Part shown: in pieces, positions 1,141 through 52,630 of the stretch
How positions within the stretch are numbered: the first letter of the stretch is position 1
Layout of the letters: every line of letters begins with the position of its first letter
Assembly (NCBI RefSeq): GCF_000332195.1
Contig: NZ_KB235922.1
Coordinates: 4,065,322 to 4,129,321 of the forward strand
Source: Pleurocapsa sp. PCC 7319
GTDB lineage: Bacteria; Cyanobacteriota; Cyanobacteriia; Cyanobacteriales; Xenococcaceae
Reading direction: 5' to 3'
Length of the DNA: 64,000 nt
Notes under the pieces: generated by a model
The model's input: the letters and a program-made list of their open reading frames with translations, nothing else
The model's database searches: none
What the model was told of the DNA's origin: nothing
Position numbers and translations under genes: made by a program

Positions 1141-1572
1141 TCAACTAGCGCTAAATTCTGTATCTAATAGCTCTGCCAAAGCGCGGCACAGATCAATAAC
1201 AGTGACAATACCCGCTAGTCTACCAGAACTAGTTACGATCGCTGCCCCAATTTTCTCTTTAGTAATTCTAGAAATTACTGTTGTTAAAGGAGTATTAATA
1301 TCAACTACATAAGGGTTGTAAGTCATGACATGATGAACGGGAATTTCATCGGCTGCGGGGATCACTATTGCAGGACTTTTCATCCAGCGTAAGTCTCTTT
1401 CGGAAATAATACCGATAACTCGATCACCTTGTTTAATTGGTATATGACGAATATTATGATCGTGCATCAATTCTAAGATACGTGCAACAGAATCATTAAG
1501 TTCGGCAAAATAGGGGAAAGGCTGCATTAAAGTCGCAACAGTAGGCATTCTTTTATGGTCTAAAAGCGTCAT
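1141..1572 (-). CDS. Tandem CBS-domain protein
   Basis: A 143-residue protein made of a single Bateman module. CBS1 is about residues 9-68 (VATLMQPFPYFAELNDSVARILELM...GIISERDLRWM) and CBS2 about residues 79-135 (VHHVMTYNPYVVDINTPL...AGIVTVIDLCRAL). CBS pairs bind adenosyl ligands such as AMP or ATP and regulate partner proteins. No catalytic domain is fused, so the partner is unknown. It is convergent with the ArsR gene (about 30 bases between stops) and reads away from the SDR region. Family call is secure, role unknown. Confidence 0.88.
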   Translation of the reverse strand: MTLLDHKRMPTVATLMQPFPYFAELNDSVARILELMHDHNIRHIPIKQGDRVIGIISERDLRWMKSPAIVIPAADEIPVHHVMTYNPYVVDINTPLTTVISRITKEKIGAAIVTSSGRLAGIVTVIDLCRALAELLDTEFSAS

Positions 1573-1706
1573 TGGTTAAGACATCTGGCTGAACTTATAC
1601 GACACAAGTTTAGACAATCCTGAAGTTAATAGACCAAGATAAATATGGAAATAATCTTAAAAAATCAAATTAGTTTAGCGATCATGCTCTTTCTCCTTAC
1701 ATAATC

Positions 1707-2007
1707 TTAGTTAACTAATTCCTGCATCAATTCCGCTACAGGCATAATTTTTGCTGCACGTCCAGCATTACTCCCCGCAAAAATAAGACCGTTCTCCACA
1801 TCTCCGCGAGTAGCTTTATCTAAGGCTTGGATAAGGCAATAGGTTTCTTTAAAGTCACGACATTTACAAGATTGCAAACAGTTAGCAATACAACGTCTTT
1901 CTAAATTTGGGTCACAGGCGATCGCTTCTTCTGATTCCCATTCCCCCTTGAATGATGGGATATGGAGCAATATGTTTACCAATACGAAGCGGTGGAAGTA
2001 TTGTCAT
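1707..2007 (-). pseudogene. Nitronate monooxygenase remnant: N-terminus joined out of frame to C-terminus
   Basis: The ATG at 2007 opens a frame reading MTILPPLRIGKHIAPYPIIQ followed by GGMGIR. This is the usual N-terminus and FMN-barrel entry (PIIQGGMG) of nitronate monooxygenase/2-nitropropane dioxygenase-type proteins. Within about 10 codons the frame stops. A second frame (1982 to 1707) carries the family's C-terminus: ERRCIANCLQSC, the Cys-containing tail, then GDVENGLIFAGSNAGR and ELMQEL. Several hundred residues of the TIM barrel are missing between them. I read this as one internal deletion with a frameshift. The family call rests on remembered consensus. The non-functional state is clear from length. 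Confidence 0.75.
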
Positions 2008-2110
2008 GGTTAATATTTATCTTGCTTTGGAAACAAAACTCGTCATTTATACAAAGTGAGTCGAAGCAAGCAAAAAAATCATCATAGATTTTTTTACTCA
2101 TCTTTAACAT

Positions 2111-2152
2111 GCCAACTAATTATATAACTAATTGGTTTTATAATTAGTTGGC
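2111..2152. repeat. Perfect 14-bp inverted repeat upstream of the SDR gene
   Basis: The arms are GCCAACTAATTATA (2111-2124) and TATAATTAGTTGGC (2139-2152), perfectly complementary across a 14-base AT-rich spacer. The spacer itself holds a near-palindrome, AACTAATTGGTT. The repeat lies between the divergent nitronate monooxygenase remnant and the SDR gene. It could be an operator for a dimeric regulator or a cruciform-forming mobile-element end. There is no T-tract to suggest a terminator. Confidence 0.7.
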
Positions 2153-2222
2153 AAAATTTATATTTTTTTCTAAATAAGAAAGTTTACTTATAATAGCTAG
2201 TTGACTGCCTGTCCCAATTTGT

Positions 2223-2963
2223 TTGTTATCAAGATACAAGTACATAGAAATTAGCCTGAAAAACAAAACAGCTCTCGTCACCGGCGGAACCAAGGGAATT
2301 GGACGGGCGATCGTGCAAGCTTTCTTAGAGAGTGGTGCGTCCGTCGTGGTCTTCGATCTGCTCCCGTCTGAGGACGATGTCGTGTTCTATCAGGTTGATG
2401 TCCGAAACGATGAGCAAATTCTTGAGGCAACTCACATACTCAAAAAGATAGATATTGTTGTCAACAATGCAGGAGTATATGCTCAAGCAAGTGTGGAAGA
2501 AACCGAAGTTGTTGATCTTGATAAGATTATAGATACGAATTTCAAAGGTACCTATTTAATTACCAAACGCCTTCTTCCACTGGTTCGCGAGTCGAAAGGC
2601 TGCTTCATTAACATAGCTTCCGGACTAGCATTCGTCCCGGAACCAGAATCACCAGCTTACTGCGCTTCGAAAGCGGCAATCGTAATGCTCACTAAGTGTC
2701 TCGCTCAAAGGTATGCTCAGGAAGGGATTCGTGTTAACGCAATTTTACCCGGACCAATCGATACAGATCTCTTGCGAGATTGCCTAACATCTGAAGCTGA
2801 TTTGGAGTTGTATGCTCAAGCGAATCCTATGAAGAAAATCGGCACTCCTGAAGATGTCGCCAACGTTGCGGTTTTTCTTGCTTCCGATCGCGCGTCGTAT
2901 GTTACCGGAGGGCTTTATTCGGTCGACGGTGGAGAATCTACTTCCAGTATTTTCTCTAAATAA
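2223..2963 (+). CDS. SDR-family oxidoreductase
   Basis: A classical short-chain dehydrogenase/reductase of about 246 residues with a Rossmann fold. The cofactor motif TGGTKGIG is near residues 20-27, NNAG near 80, the catalytic Ser in NIASG, and YxxxK as YCASK. The C-terminal substrate region ends PEDVANVAVFLASDRASYVTGG, then VDGG. The acid in VVFDLLPSED after beta-2 hints at NAD(H) preference. There is no ATG before the glycine motif. TTG at 2223 is the only convenient start and has no clear ribosome binding site, so the true start is uncertain. The gene is visibly richer in G+C and CG dinucleotides than its neighbours, which suggests transfer. Substrate unknown. Confidence 0.88.
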   Translation: MLSRYKYIEISLKNKTALVTGGTKGIGRAIVQAFLESGASVVVFDLLPSEDDVVFYQVDVRNDEQILEATHILKKIDIVVNNAGVYAQASVEETEVVDLDKIIDTNFKGTYLITKRLLPLVRESKGCFINIASGLAFVPEPESPAYCASKAAIVMLTKCLAQRYAQEGIRVNAILPGPIDTDLLRDCLTSEADLELYAQANPMKKIGTPEDVANVAVFLASDRASYVTGGLYSVDGGESTSSIFSK

Positions 2964-2989
2964 TACAGATCGTGAGACTTGGATCTTGG

Positions 2990-3328
2990 TTACATCTGAT
3001 TTAACTCTGCAATCAAATTGTAGAGCTTCACTTCAACTACTGATAATTCTGAGGATTTATGATTTTTCATGCCCATAGCAGTTAAGAGTAAACCCAATTC
3101 AAAAGCATCTTTAGAGTCAAGAATCAATTCTAATTCTTCTGCTCCAGCTAAAATACAGGGTTCATCTTGACGTTCCTTGACTGCAAAATTGAGATGAATC
3201 GATGTTGAATCTTTGCCTTCTCCTTGTAGTTGAGATATTTTATCACCTACTACGGTAAGAGAAGAGAGATGACTTGAGACGGTTATATCATCAGTTTCGA
3301 GATTGCAAGTTAAATATTGACCAGTCAT
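2990..3328 (-). CDS. Conserved-looking hypothetical protein, 112 aa
   Basis: I do not recognise the family. The start is well supported: ATG at 3328 is preceded by AGGAG at good spacing (CTTAGGAGTTAGCATT). The protein is soluble and acidic, without signal peptide or membrane segment. It looks like alternating beta strands in the first two thirds (QYLTCNLETDDITVSS, STSIHLNFAV) followed by a helical tail (AFELGLLLTAMG, VKLYNLIAELNQ). It is convergent with the SDR gene (26 bases between stops). Confidence 0.6.
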   Translation of the reverse strand: MTGQYLTCNLETDDITVSSHLSSLTVVGDKISQLQGEGKDSTSIHLNFAVKERQDEPCILAGAEELELILDSKDAFELGLLLTAMGMKNHKSSELSVVEVKLYNLIAELNQM

Positions 3329-45991: not shown

Positions 45992-47029
45992 CTAACCAAT
46001 CTCAGTTTTCTTATTTTTCTGAAAAGAGACTTGTAAGTTTACTACTCGAAGATAAGATGCGATGTATGACAACAGCGCATAGACAAAAACTACAATACCA
46101 AACATTTCTAGAGATTCTTCAATTGTAGTAATTAGCGCGTACATGGGATTTTCTTCGCCATATGCTTCAGAATGATATCCACCAATCATTTCCATGCCAA
46201 TTGCACCACCAACATAGATGGTTCCTGCAATAATAAATAAATTTCTGGTTCTTCGAGGTAGCGATTGAATAAACTTCCAGAATATTAATAAAAAAAGCAT
46301 TACTAAAATAGAACCAGGAACTACCCAAGTGAAATACAGGAATCCCCCTGCATTTAACACGGGTCTAAGGGCACTCAAAATTTCGTGAATACTACACATT
46401 TCGTCAACTGCAAGGTATAAAAAAATTAAGGATAAAGCCCTCCAGTAGCCTGTGTAGCGGGAATCAATTACTTTTTTCAGATAGCTAATTATGGCTAGTA
46501 GTATCGAGCAAAATGCTAAAGCCAAGCTAGAGTATAAAGTCGGAATATTTATTTCTTCATCTAAGCGAAATAGCCTACCAGAGTAATTTGCTGATGAAGA
46601 TTGGTTTAAAAAGAACGCACCAAACTGAGCTAGAGAACTAACAATAATTAGACAGGTAACAATTATTAGTAGTAAGCGACATACTTTCTGAGGAGATAGA
46701 TCTAAAGTAGGCAAGCTTAAGGTTTTAGTAAGTCGATCTGAAGTTACTGAGAAACTATTCGATGTTTCAATCTTCAGTTCATTAGATAAATTATGTTGAC
46801 GATTTTGAATTTGTTCTGGTTCGAAAATATTTTTAATGAAATAATCGAGAGTTTTTTGTTTAATATCACCTTGGCGAACTAAAATATCACCGATTCTTTC
46901 TTCAGTTTTTTCTTGTTCTTCTAGAGCCTGTAATAAGCGATCTTGAGACACTAAACCAGATTCGACTAAATAGCTACCTATAGGTTTATGATTACATCTA
47001 TGATGTTGTAAATTATTTATTTTTGACAT
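45992..47029 (-). CDS. Multi-pass membrane protein with an MshEN-like N-terminal domain
   Basis: 345 residues. Residues about 15-70 (IGSYLVESGLVSQDRLLQAL, EEQEKTEERIGDILVRQGDI) match the GspE/MshEN N-terminal domain, which binds cyclic di-GMP in some proteins. From about 115 on are six or seven hydrophobic helices. Conserved-looking charged residues lie within them: LAVDEMCSIHEILSA and EESLEMFGIVVFVYALL. The split membrane gene at 48.8-52.5 kb resembles the membrane part (D-D/E..HE; IEDGFKLLGIL). Function unknown; a second-messenger-controlled membrane enzyme or transporter is speculation. Confidence 0.65.
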   Translation of the reverse strand: MSKINNLQHHRCNHKPIGSYLVESGLVSQDRLLQALEEQEKTEERIGDILVRQGDIKQKTLDYFIKNIFEPEQIQNRQHNLSNELKIETSNSFSVTSDRLTKTLSLPTLDLSPQKVCRLLLIIVTCLIIVSSLAQFGAFFLNQSSSANYSGRLFRLDEEINIPTLYSSLALAFCSILLAIISYLKKVIDSRYTGYWRALSLIFLYLAVDEMCSIHEILSALRPVLNAGGFLYFTWVVPGSILVMLFLLIFWKFIQSLPRRTRNLFIIAGTIYVGGAIGMEMIGGYHSEAYGEENPMYALITTIEESLEMFGIVVFVYALLSYIASYLRVVNLQVSFQKNKKTEIG

Positions 47030-48816: not shown

Positions 48817-49748
48817 ATTTGACTCAACTAAGTTGCTGACATGAAGTCTTAATATCTTCAATGCTAGCTCTTATAAAATATGCTGCCCAAGTCAAAATAC
48901 CTAACAACTTAAACCCATCTTCAATTAAAAACTTACCCCGAAAATGATTCGCAAAAACTTCATCAATTACTACAGAAATAGCAAACCCTAGCAATGACAG
49001 TCCCAAGAGTATAAAATCTGACTTTTCACGGTATCTTGGGTCGAAAAAAAACTAGGTAATAATGTTCGCTAACTTTTGTTCAATCTTGAGGTTTCCTCAA
49101 CCAAATCTGACAAACCCATTGAAAGTGTACTCATCCCTCGCTCCAAAGCTTCAATTCGACCACGACGTGATAGAGCTTCAACCGCTTTCAAATAAGCTTG
49201 ACTTCCAGCTTTATAGTCATTCTAAATAGGAAACATATGAAATAATATAAGCTAGATGAGAAATCAATCAGGTTAGATGACTTATAGTGTAGATTTGCGA
49301 AAGCGGGTAGTGGACTTTGTAGCGGCTGGAGGCTCCAAAGCCGAAGCATCAAGAAGATATGAGGTAAGTCTATGGTGTGTGAATGATTGGTGTCGAAGAA
49401 AGAATTTGACTCCAGCACCACAACTTGGAAGAAAGCGAAAACTAGACTCTCTAGCAATTGCCCAACATATTCAAGAAAATCCAGATGCTTTGTTAAGAGA
49501 AAGGGCGCAATATTTTGGAGTGCATACGAGTGCTATTGGGTATGCCCAGAAGCAAATGAAGTTAACTCGTAAAAAAAACGCTGAAATACACTGAACGTAA
49601 GCATAGTGAGCGAATCAGCTTTCTGAGAAATTTACGTAAAATTGTCATTCTTGACGGATCAAGCAATTTAGTTTACTTGGATGAATCAGGCTTTGAAGAA
49701 TATGTCTATCGTCCTTATGGCTGGTCAAAACGAGGACAAAAAACTTAC

Positions 49749-49783
49749 GGCGATTGCCCGAAGGGCAGTGGCTTCGCCAATCG
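49749..49783 (+). repeat. 35-bp palindromic repeat inside the IS630 transposase
   Basis: Base-for-base identical to the unit in the SNF2 helicase gene (14053-14087, other strand) and read in the same frame as GDCPKGSGFAN. The transposase resumes its family sequence directly after (NGKRGTRTSLIAG). Confidence 0.88.
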
Positions 49784-50067
49784 CAATGGTAAAAGAGGAA
49801 CAAGAACAAGTCTGATAGCTGGCAAAAGAGGCAAAGAGTTGTTAGCACCAGTTCTTTTTAAAGGAAGTAAATGGTGCTTTATGGTTTAATCAATGGCTCG
49901 AAGAGCATCTAATTCCCGAATTGAAACCAAACTCCACTCTAATTCTTGATAATGCGGCATTTCATCGCAAGGATGATGTGTTTCGCATTGCCGAACAAGC
50001 GGGTCACAAAGTTTTGTTTTTACCACCCTATTCACCTGATTTTAATCGTATCGAACAAGACTTTGCG

Positions 50068-50090
50068 ACGCGAAGCTAATCCTTTAGGGC
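50068..50090 (+). repeat. Second small repeat interrupting the IS630 transposase
   Basis: About 23 bases (ACGCGAAGC...CTTTAGGGC) sit between codons of RIEQDFA and ILKKRRIYSAPGTSLDDIV. They bring a TAA and shift the frame. The composition (GCGAAGC, TTTAGGGC) is like other dispersed cyanobacterial repeats. With the unit at 49749 it makes two separate hits in one dead transposase. Confidence 0.7.
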
Positions 50091-50453
50091 ATCCTCAAAA
50101 AAAGACGTATTTATTCCGCTCCTGGTACTTCCTTGGATGACATCGTTAAATCATACGGAAATTATTTAGAATGACTATACCTAAATATTGATGACGAGAA
50201 GGATTGCCATTTTTGGTGACAAAAATCGGCTCATGGGACATCCATTTGTAATACCAATAACGACCACCCTTTTTTCCTTTAGCTTGGTAGCGCACAATCC
50301 AACAACCAGACGGAGCAATTTCACCTTCGTCCCTTATGTCTTGAATATCTTGTTGGAGTTGTTTAATAAGATGTTTAAGTTCATCTAGACGAGTGGCTAG
50401 ATCCTTCTGTTGACGGGCATTAGCCATAGTTCAGCTCAGAAATAATCGGATAT

Positions 50454-52014
50454 AGTTGTGTAACAAAGTTCGCCAACTATATTCTCATTCTAGTCCTCTC
50501 CAAAGTTACAATCAACTCGCTTCTAAACTTCAACCAGGGGAGCGTAATTGCCATCCTTCACATAAAGATTGCAGCTCTAAAAAGCCACGCCATAACACCG
50601 TGATGCCAATATTACTCTTTCGGCGATGACTCAAGTAACCGCCCAAACGAGCTACAGCTTGTATCGCCCAAGCTACCGTTAAATCTACTGCGGTGACTGA
50701 TTTTCCAAATTTGGCAGCTAAAACCTCAATTTGTACCTGATTTAAAATTGAAGATGCAGGTGCATCTGGTTTGGTTCGATGAACATAGGTCATTTTTAAC
50801 AATTGTGCAGCGATATTCGTTAAAAATCCCAGTAAAACTTGCATACTATCTCCAGATAGACGATAGCTTTCCGCTTTACACCCTGACTTGAGAATTTTAT
50901 GATATTCTTCAATTCGCCAACGGTAAGTATACCATCGTAAAATGGTTTGTGCTTGTTCCCCATTGGTAACGGGTTCGGAGGTCAAGATCATCCATTCTAC
51001 GGGTTCACAGCCTTCTGGGGGGTCAATTTCTACGGCATAAACCCCATAAACTTCAAAATATTCTGGTTCTTTCATTCTGGCAGGACTGCGAAGTTTGATG
51101 GGTGCATATCTAATTGCCAGAGTAGCGGTTCGCTCTTTTCGATTTGGGGTTTTGGCTAATTCTACTGCTACTTCCATCTTGATAGATTGAGATGGGAGCC
51201 ATGACCATAAATAACTGTTTGACTCTGATAATGCCCTATTATGTGCTGCTCTTACCACTAACCCTGTATTTGCGGTTTGACTGACTTGTTCAAAGACTTC
51301 CGCGATATCTCCTTCTCGGTCAAATACATGAATTACTTTGGTGCTAATACTCTCTGGTTCGGATTTTTCTAAGAGTTTCTGGACGGATTGGAGAGCTTCT
51401 ATCCATTTATAAGATTCTTTTTGTTCAATCGGACGTCTTCTTGCTTCCGCTTGCTTTTTCTGCTTCTGTTTCTGAGTTAAACTCTTACTTTCTTCATGAT
51501 TTCGATGCCACAGTTTTTCTGTTAATAATCCTATGGGTTGTCCATTCTCCCCATTTACAGCTAAGGTGCTATGTAAAATTAGTCCATTCCCACCATTGCC
51601 AATGGGTCCATATTCGGCTCTTTTTTCGCGGATTTTCTTGTAATCGAGATAGGTTGTATCTCCTACTGCTAATACGATTGAGAGTTCTTTAATCTGCTCT
51701 GCTGTTTGAAGATGATAGGGTTGGCACACACTGTTTAGGCTAGTTTTCGGATTGGCAAAGAATTCATAAGCTCTTTTCAGGTCACTTGCTCTCTCAAAAA
51801 TCGCGGAGAGTGGTTTGCCATATTTTAACGATAATCTCGATTCGATGAACATAGCCCTTTTGGTTAAACGCTGATCTCCAAAGTCACATTTTTCGGTTAT
51901 TAAATTTTTGGTCTGATTCATTCACCACTCAAAATCTGCTCAATTATTTTGCTCTATCGAGAGGGCAGATTTCTCGAAATGGATAAAATTGTTAGCGAAT
52001 ATTGTTACACAACT
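50454..52014 (-). mobile_element. IS4-family element
   Basis: About 1.56 kb with inward-facing ends GTTGTGTAACAAAGTTCGCC (from 50455) and, inverted, GTTGTGTAACAATATTCGCT (from 52013), about 20 of 23 matching over the full ends. The flanks are AT-rich and a target duplication could not be fixed beyond a possible TAT. It inserted between the promoter-side end and the ORF of the outer transposon. A third, weaker copy of the end (GTAATAATGTTCGCTAAC, 49055-49072) lies at the left. Confidence 0.72.
50530..51921 (-). CDS. IS4-family transposase (DDE, Tn5/IS50-like)
   Basis: 463 residues and apparently intact. The N-terminal DNA-binding segment is FGDQRLTKRAMFIESRLSLK and FERASDLKRAYEFFANPKTS. First catalytic Asp is in AVGDTTYLDY, second in HVFDREGDIAEVFEQV, and the Glu in the Y-R-E-K-like box YRWRIEEYHKILKSGCKAE. 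This layout with the insertion domain between the second Asp and Glu fits the IS4/IS50 group. It could mobilise the element at 50454-52014 and perhaps the outer element. Confidence 0.92.
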   Translation of the reverse strand: MNQTKNLITEKCDFGDQRLTKRAMFIESRLSLKYGKPLSAIFERASDLKRAYEFFANPKTSLNSVCQPYHLQTAEQIKELSIVLAVGDTTYLDYKKIREKRAEYGPIGNGGNGLILHSTLAVNGENGQPIGLLTEKLWHRNHEESKSLTQKQKQKKQAEARRRPIEQKESYKWIEALQSVQKLLEKSEPESISTKVIHVFDREGDIAEVFEQVSQTANTGLVVRAAHNRALSESNSYLWSWLPSQSIKMEVAVELAKTPNRKERTATLAIRYAPIKLRSPARMKEPEYFEVYGVYAVEIDPPEGCEPVEWMILTSEPVTNGEQAQTILRWYTYRWRIEEYHKILKSGCKAESYRLSGDSMQVLLGFLTNIAAQLLKMTYVHRTKPDAPASSILNQVQIEVLAAKFGKSVTAVDLTVAWAIQAVARLGGYLSHRRKSNIGITVLWRGFLELQSLCEGWQLRSPG

Positions 52015-52630
52015 TATATACCCTTCAAAAGATGCCGTGAAAAGTCAGGTATAAAATCTGTTGTCATGATTTTTTTTCTAAAGATAACCAGATAAGCTAA
52101 AAGCATTAAAAGATATAGTAAAAAAGCTTGGCTCTCTGAAATATTGAGATATTCTGGGAAAATCTTTTCATGTAGTAGAAAAAAGTCATCAACTAGTAAA
52201 ACTGTAGTTATAAAACCGCCCCAAAACCAAAAATAAAAAGTTTGGCTCTCATGATTAATTTTGTGAATAATAACAGATGAAAAAAAACAAATTGTCGCTC
52301 CAGCCGCCCAAAATAAAATCCCAATATTAGAGAGAATACCAATATAGAATGGAGCATCTAGAATAGTTAACGGATCGCGAGTAAAGTCCATAATTGGAAT
52401 ATTTGTCCGCCAAGAAATAAATCCCACGGTTAACAAAACTAATACTGTAGGCAGATAAATTATAAGAATAAGAGAATAAATTCTGCTTATTTGCTCTAAA
52501 AGTGAATTTTTTTTCATGTTGAATCAATTTTTTTGATTATCAAATGTTACATCATTCAACATGAATTAGACACAAAGAAAATATTTTCATCCTTCATCTC
52601 TCTGATCTCATGAGCATCCAGACTGAAGTT

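Follow-up and report, generated by a model that had tools for sequence, protein, structure and literature searches.

What is the small gene that lies broken inside a nested transposon of the cyanobacterium Pleurocapsa sp. PCC 7319, and what might it do for the element that carries it? The question arises from a stretch of 64,000 nucleotides (contig NZ_KB235922.1, positions 4,065,322 to 4,129,321 of the forward strand; in the following called the window), in which a membrane-protein gene is split by an outer element whose 130-codon open reading frame (ORF), here termed the accessory gene, is in turn split by an IS630 element. We found relatives of this gene, together with a common 23-base-pair (bp) palindromic site, inside mobile elements of very different kinds. 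Probably the protein of ~130 amino acids and its site form a portable module, carried by several unrelated transposase lineages, in which the product binds the palindrome and acts mainly as a brake. The mobile unit in the window consists of the following parts:

49018..52048, minus strand: whole mobile unit, 3031 bp, IS4 family, IS50/Tn5-like group, with the accessory gene inside broken by IS630
49009..49017, no strand: left copy of the target-site duplication GTATAAAAT, 9 bp
52049..52057, no strand: right copy of the target-site duplication GTATAAAAT, 9 bp
49018..49037, plus strand: terminal inverted repeat CTGACTTTTCACGG..., accessory-gene side
52029..52048, minus strand: terminal inverted repeat, transposase side
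50530..51921, minus strand: IS4/Tn5-type transposase, 463 amino acids, open frame
50180..50427, minus strand: 5′ part of the accessory gene, its first ~83 codons
49069..49213, minus strand: 3′ part of the accessory gene beyond IS630, its end reckoned from the 130-amino-acid length and the intact ORF of L011

We assign the outer element to the IS4 family, IS50/Tn5-like group, and the IS4 transposase to the element as its own. The transposase scored 348 bits against NF033590 (cut-off 160) and 81 bits against the Tn5-type N-terminal DNA-binding domain NF049926 (cut-off 27), and its 463-amino-acid frame contains a Y-2-R-3-E-6-K signature, YTYRWRIEEYHKILK, which we take to be a mark of the IS4 family. 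Ends of about 19 bp and a 9-bp duplication are expected of the IS50/Tn5-like group and both were found. The sequence-only reading had proposed a 9-bp duplication and ends of 19/20 bp; the two copies of GTATAAAAT are indeed in place at 49009-49017 and 52049-52057, and the ends match over 20 bp at 95% in inverted orientation (49018-49037 against 52029-52048). The same reading had placed a separate IS4-type element beside the ORF, and this part has to be given up. A second lineage in the host genome, 86–87% identical and free of IS630 (query 1-195 runs straight into 1163-3031), has three 2067-bp copies identical to one another, two of which are flanked by duplications (8 and 10 bp), and also two interrupted or partial copies. 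The 2067-bp copies hold a 466-amino-acid transposase and an intact 130-amino-acid ORF between the same outer ends, which rules out the transposase as an insertion of its own. The inner repeats that resemble IS4 ends (50454-50486 and 51982-52014) contain two of the three copies of an internal motif, and this motif is the site found throughout the accessory-gene family; a pattern drawn from the three copies matched three times in the window and nowhere else there, with 0.09 matches expected.

We classify the 130-codon ORF as a member of an unnamed cyanobacterial protein family. The intact 130-amino-acid protein had no match worth naming in Pfam or PHROGs (best PHROGs match 0.017), 31 family members compared with Pfam and NCBIfam gave scattered weak matches (best 0.0029 and 0.0016, each in at most five members), and a sequence search of the product against solved structures yielded nothing useful. 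The single sequence detected homologs in 15 of 292 cyanobacterial genomes and a profile in 19 of 292, the host genome included, often in several copies, and 41 plasmid records matched the family as well. From a scan of a species-genome collection the best 80 of 119 relatives were kept, all but one of these 80 from records named as cyanobacteria. One homolog, at 1008-1358 of L118, lies in a metagenome-assembled genome labelled Candidatus Gracilibacteria, outside the cyanobacteria, where mis-binning is possible. Judged by titles and the starts of abstracts, no account of the family or its site was found in the literature searched.

Most of the accessory genes are accompanied by transposases, whose lineages we named via NCBIfam and Pfam. 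Reference transposases revealed a partner within 1.5 kb in 59 of 80 loci; with near-copies included and extra references partly taken from the same loci, 102 of 124 loci had a transposase of a named lineage no more than 900 bp away, leaving 22 without one by this test. The transposase stands on the 5′ side of the accessory gene in 100 of these 102, and the relative orientation is constant within each lineage except for one of 26 Tn5-type rows. The partner lineages above the cut-off are Tn5-type IS4 (NF033590), IS4-type IS4 (NF033592) and two ISKra4 groups (NF033572), those below it an IS701-like lineage and a split NF041680 protein. Further partners are DUF6399, a Pfam family only, and isolated cases with the labels IS1182, IS630 and others. 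In six lineages, the pair of genes lies between inverted ends, with target duplications outside the unit as a whole:

Tn5-type: L163 and L117, duplication flanking both genes
IS4-type: L171, 10-bp duplication
ISKra4a: L162 and L161, 9-bp duplication
ISKra4b: L139 and L174, 8-bp duplication
DUF6399: L107 and L168, 8-bp duplication
NF041680: L113, 7-bp duplication

A scripted test detected duplications at 11 of 35 elements. On a tree of 59 deduplicated accessory proteins, the partner changed 17 times when nine unassigned rows were counted as one group (least possible 11, shuffled mean 39.4) and 11 times without these rows. We read the accessory gene as mostly inherited with its partner, yet passed between lineages repeatedly, because one gene family spans 11 partner labels. 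The accessory gene in the window is itself sister to an ISKra4a one (98/94) despite its Tn5-type transposase, with both branches long. That the accessory ORF is a chance neighbour is ruled out by the partner counts, by the fit of partner and tree, and by ends and duplications lying outside both genes.

Some of these loci merit separate mention. The DUF6399 proteins are found in elements with inverted ends of 29-31 bp and 8-bp duplications (L107, 3077-5573; L168, 587-3091), with further DUF6399 loci at L105, L106 and L159. Enclosed in this way, they are probably transposases of an unnamed insertion sequence family; the predicted structure of a DUF6399 protein reached a predicted local distance difference test score (pLDDT) of 47 and was not used. 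Other accessory elements in the host genome are L159 (G000:C7:2554517-2562891), with a DUF6399 protein as partner, and L160 (G000:C7:887906-896268), whose ends are like those of the IS1182-type element L115. At L054 and L056 the accessory gene stands alone, with no transposase of a reference lineage nearby; in L056 (about 1185-1961) it lies between inverted repeats of ~77 bp, perhaps as a small non-autonomous element.

The elements with an accessory gene have a 23-bp palindrome in common, RTTCGC-N11-GCGAAY or variants, which was first noticed by eye as GTTCGC and GCGAAC spaced 17 bases apart around the gene in several lineages. A search for 6-bp inverted repeats of any sequence peaked at loops of 7 to 15, at odd lengths only, as one long palindrome would; at a loop of 9, such repeats were present upstream of the gene in 36 of 59 rows and downstream in 32, compared with seven of 59 coding regions. 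We then used the pattern RTT[CA][GT]C-N11-G[CA][GT]AAY with at most one mismatch on 56 rows, the 59 of the tree minus the remote homologs L060, L062 and L063. The site was found upstream of the accessory gene in 48 and downstream in 50 of them (shuffled means 0.7 and 0.85), and in four coding regions. A loop of 11 fits 54 of the 56 rows; each of the remaining 15 loop lengths between 5 and 20 fits 1 to 14.

In the 35 elements for which a script located the ends, the transposase-side end has a site within 170 bp in 27 cases and the other end in 33, and 33 elements have one before the gene; all three are present in 24. Within each lineage the site keeps almost the same distance to the end, with 33-36 bp for most Tn5-like elements, 40-44 bp for most ISKra4b elements and 48-52 bp for the IS4-type ones. 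The window element has its three sites at the following positions:

49051..49073, minus strand: operator-like site where the accessory gene ends, 33 bp inward of the left element end; GTTAGC-N11-CCTAGT, with CCTAAC as second half in intact copies
50455..50477, minus strand: operator-like site before the accessory gene, imperfect
51991..52013, minus strand: imperfect operator-like site preceding the transposase, 35 bp inward of the right element end

As controls we examined Tn5-like and ISKra4 elements that have no accessory gene, leaving out loci for which no inverted ends were found, repeat copies, and two loci with spurious hairpin ends. The site was near either end in none of 17 such elements (16 distinct). 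The nearest of them, L176, has a transposase 55% identical (with one stop inside), CTGACTTTTC ends and a duplication, and is without the site. This bears on the possibility that the palindrome is a site of the transposase or of a host factor and the accessory gene cargo with another role. Most accessory clades are also transposase clades, so that the two are partly confounded, but unrelated transposases are accompanied by one and the same site, 11-bp loop included, and its absence from all 17 of these controls, L176 included, makes cargo improbable. The type of the site is informative too: on the accessory tree its middle bases change five times (shuffled 15.6) and its first base five times (shuffled 17.6). 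Since the accessory tree follows the transposases, this fit is support and not proof. The strongest cases are elements that belong to one transposase lineage yet differ in site type: the window's lineage compared with the remaining Tn5-type elements, and L150 compared with L108 and L113. Residue 54 of the protein (G or Q) tracks the half-site's first base in most rows, confounded by descent.

The accessory gene thus lies inside the ends of one mobile unit, has a site in common with its relatives, and this site is missing from the gene-less elements tested. The tests covered position, spacing and co-occurrence; we propose that the protein binds DNA, dimerises and represses. It would bind the palindrome as a dimer. 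With sites upstream of the accessory gene and near each end, one also stands upstream of the transposase in the arrangements seen, the window element among them. A protein bound at these sites might keep both genes repressed and cover or retain the element's ends. Its main role would be to hold down transposition and its own expression, with help in pairing the ends ranked second. With slightly less than even confidence, we further propose that a module of a small dimeric DNA-binding protein and its operator was captured repeatedly by at least six unrelated transposase lineages, exerting the same control via the DNA ends and not via any particular transposase.

Within a lineage the sites are almost equidistant from both ends, an arrangement that would also suit a protein that aids transposition by bringing the two ends together or bending them, in the manner of IHF-like or synapsis factors and irrespective of the transposase. 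We consider such a helper unlikely. In the host genome, copies with a broken accessory gene outnumber intact ones by nine to five; the gene is therefore not needed in cis, and a brake is favoured over an essential helper, although supply in trans is possible. Elements of the same families also exist without the accessory gene.

The predicted structure of the accessory protein (pLDDT 91.9) consists of a long helix, three strands and a second long helix. Conserved motifs are RY, YWYYKL and KYKHLGKAG, and nine of the 14 invariant residues are on predicted strands. Going by this model, the protein may form a coiled-coil dimer whose sheets would read the 23-bp palindrome. Foldseek returned no match at E ≤ 0.001; the top structural row was 4kis, part of a serine-recombinase–DNA complex, with Z 8.0 over 63 residues, possibly reflecting only a common arrangement. 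This row, the invariant R, Y and K residues and the presence of three sites in 24 of the 35 elements could point to an enzyme, a nuclease or recombinase acting at palindromes. No convincing enzyme family was found in Pfam or NCBIfam, however, nor any Foldseek match at that threshold, and we regard an enzyme as very improbable.

Several points weigh against the module of a palindrome-binding brake. A control region at 400-1400 bp has the site in 14 of the 56 rows (shuffled 4.7). The three remote homologs are without such a site, as are L050, which has near variants, and L102 among the 56 rows. Eight of the 35 elements have no left-end site, and the three sites of the window element are all imperfect and of the GTTAGC type. 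Since the pattern was taken by eye from the very elements in which it was counted, the counts are not independent; they describe and do not test, and the weight rests on the spacing, the shuffle and the gene-less controls. The 17 controls come from the Tn5-like and ISKra4 families only, L185 and L194 among them are copies of one element, a further pair is 91% alike, and in six the ends are supported by a duplication. The accessory and transposase trees largely agree, and the site type is not cleanly assignable to either. Fold searches matched no known DNA-binding fold convincingly, and the intact copies in the same genome may act in trans.

Most insertion sequences are described as a transposase and its ends, with control specific to each family, and passenger and accessory genes within them are already known. 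In IS1, InsA, like similar element-encoded repressors, is a small product that binds the element ends and promoter; InsA is part of its own transposase, whereas the accessory family goes with many transposases. IS50/Tn5 resembles the window element in its transposase class (NF033590 / Tnp_DNA_bind), in the 9-bp duplication, and in an end that, as we take it for Tn5, starts with CTGACT like the ends in the window. It differs in that the window element has a second gene and the palindrome 33-36 bp inside both ends. TnpB of IS605 and IS607, according to the excerpt of PMC9956272, is similar in being one accessory gene common to elements of unrelated transposases. The accessory-family partners differ in being mostly of the DDE type, and the ~130-amino-acid protein has its own DNA site; TnpB was compared via family libraries only. 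The excerpt of PMC3942029 reports accessory ORFs for the ISAzba1 and ISKra4 groups, describes ISMich2 elements as all plain insertion sequences, and places a pRiA4_Orf3-like protein of ISAzba1-group transposons in one monophyletic branch of one transposase group. As far as that excerpt goes, the likeness is an accessory ORF of unknown function in Mutator-like, ISKra4-related elements, and the difference that the family described here spans many transposases and received no known domain in Pfam scans.

The remaining layers of the nest are as follows:

49214..50177, plus strand: IS630 element, 964 bp, TA copies at 49212-49213 and 50178-50179, transposase damaged
49759..49785 (about, as aligned), no strand: 27-bp short repeat within IS630, without counterpart in 3/3 aligned relatives
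50067..50089 (about, as aligned), no strand: 23-bp short repeat within IS630, shifting the frame, without counterpart in 3/3 aligned relatives
52058..52517, minus strand: 5′ part of the membrane-protein gene
48824..49017, minus strand: 3′ part of the membrane-protein gene

The anatomy of the nest is beyond chance, and much of what the sequence-only reading had said of it was borne out. IS630, described there by a TA duplication and 15-bp ends, has its TA copies, and its ends are mirrored across about 15-17 bp; its family domains were recognised as PF01710 (3.2e-28) and, on one piece, DDE_3 (8.2e-13). The two small repeats said to have hit it are the 27-bp and 23-bp inserts, missing at the same places in all three aligned relatives. 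These relatives have frames of ~105 and 185 amino acids, and in the IS630 of the window the second frame is broken up. We judge this IS630 transposase not to be a working one and the later breaks to be real damage. The break between the 105- and 185-amino-acid frames was rejected as damage, being common to the three relatives, and is probably programmed frameshifting.

Unpicking the layers to the base restores both reading frames, as had been claimed. Rejoined across IS630, the accessory frame comes to 130 amino acids, the length of the intact ORF in the IS630-free 2067-bp relatives. The membrane-protein frame, rejoined across the outer element, gives 217 amino acids that align without gaps over 210 residues, at 67% identity, with an intact homolog (L038) in a genome of the same family as the host. 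By coordinates, each of the 11 homolog loci used spans the joint in its alignment, and three of these alignments were read residue by residue. At 45992-47029 of the window, on the minus strand, a 345-amino-acid protein with an N-terminal cyclic di-GMP-binding motif (NF053729) has a hydrophobic part that by eye resembles the split 217-amino-acid gene, possibly as a nearby paralog. The proposed four levels hold if the host gene is counted; the insertions are only three deep (element, IS630, short repeats).

Nesting and frame restoration might suggest that the layers came one by one at this locus, first the outer element, then IS630, then the short repeats, and a relative time order had been read from them. 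Such an order does not follow for this locus. The ~3031-bp unit is present in its own genome as eight full-length copies at 100% (rounded), besides partial ones; all eight contain the broken IS630, and six have duplications of 9-10 bp of their own, with none at the other two. Runs of 100 N break several element copies in the assembly (L010, L017 and L021), so there may be more full-length copies than were counted. The nest travels as one piece, presumably moved as a compound element by the outer element's own transposase. At most one of the eight copies is therefore the site at which IS630 arrived. In L013 (1001-1971), moreover, a free IS630 copy is flanked by a TA pair of its own, with an intact 2067-bp element some 20 bases away. 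It is identical to that of the nest over 971 bp, both short inserts included, so the inserts may predate the entry of IS630 into the outer element. One of the eight could be the founding site, yet we give stepwise arrival in the window hardly any credence, and dating from the nesting was rejected as an inference. Most likely the insertion into the membrane gene is the youngest event and the locus a later landing.

The window nest illustrates that nesting alone is no clock for insertions. It also makes this genome a natural knock-out, in which the lineage with the broken accessory gene has more copies than the intact one, and the question of the brake is thereby directly testable. If the proposed module is real, it would explain the long inverted repeats, mostly of 52-82 bp, in many elements with an accessory gene, and a gene together with its site would constitute a general, exchangeable control for mobile DNA, used with many unrelated transposases.

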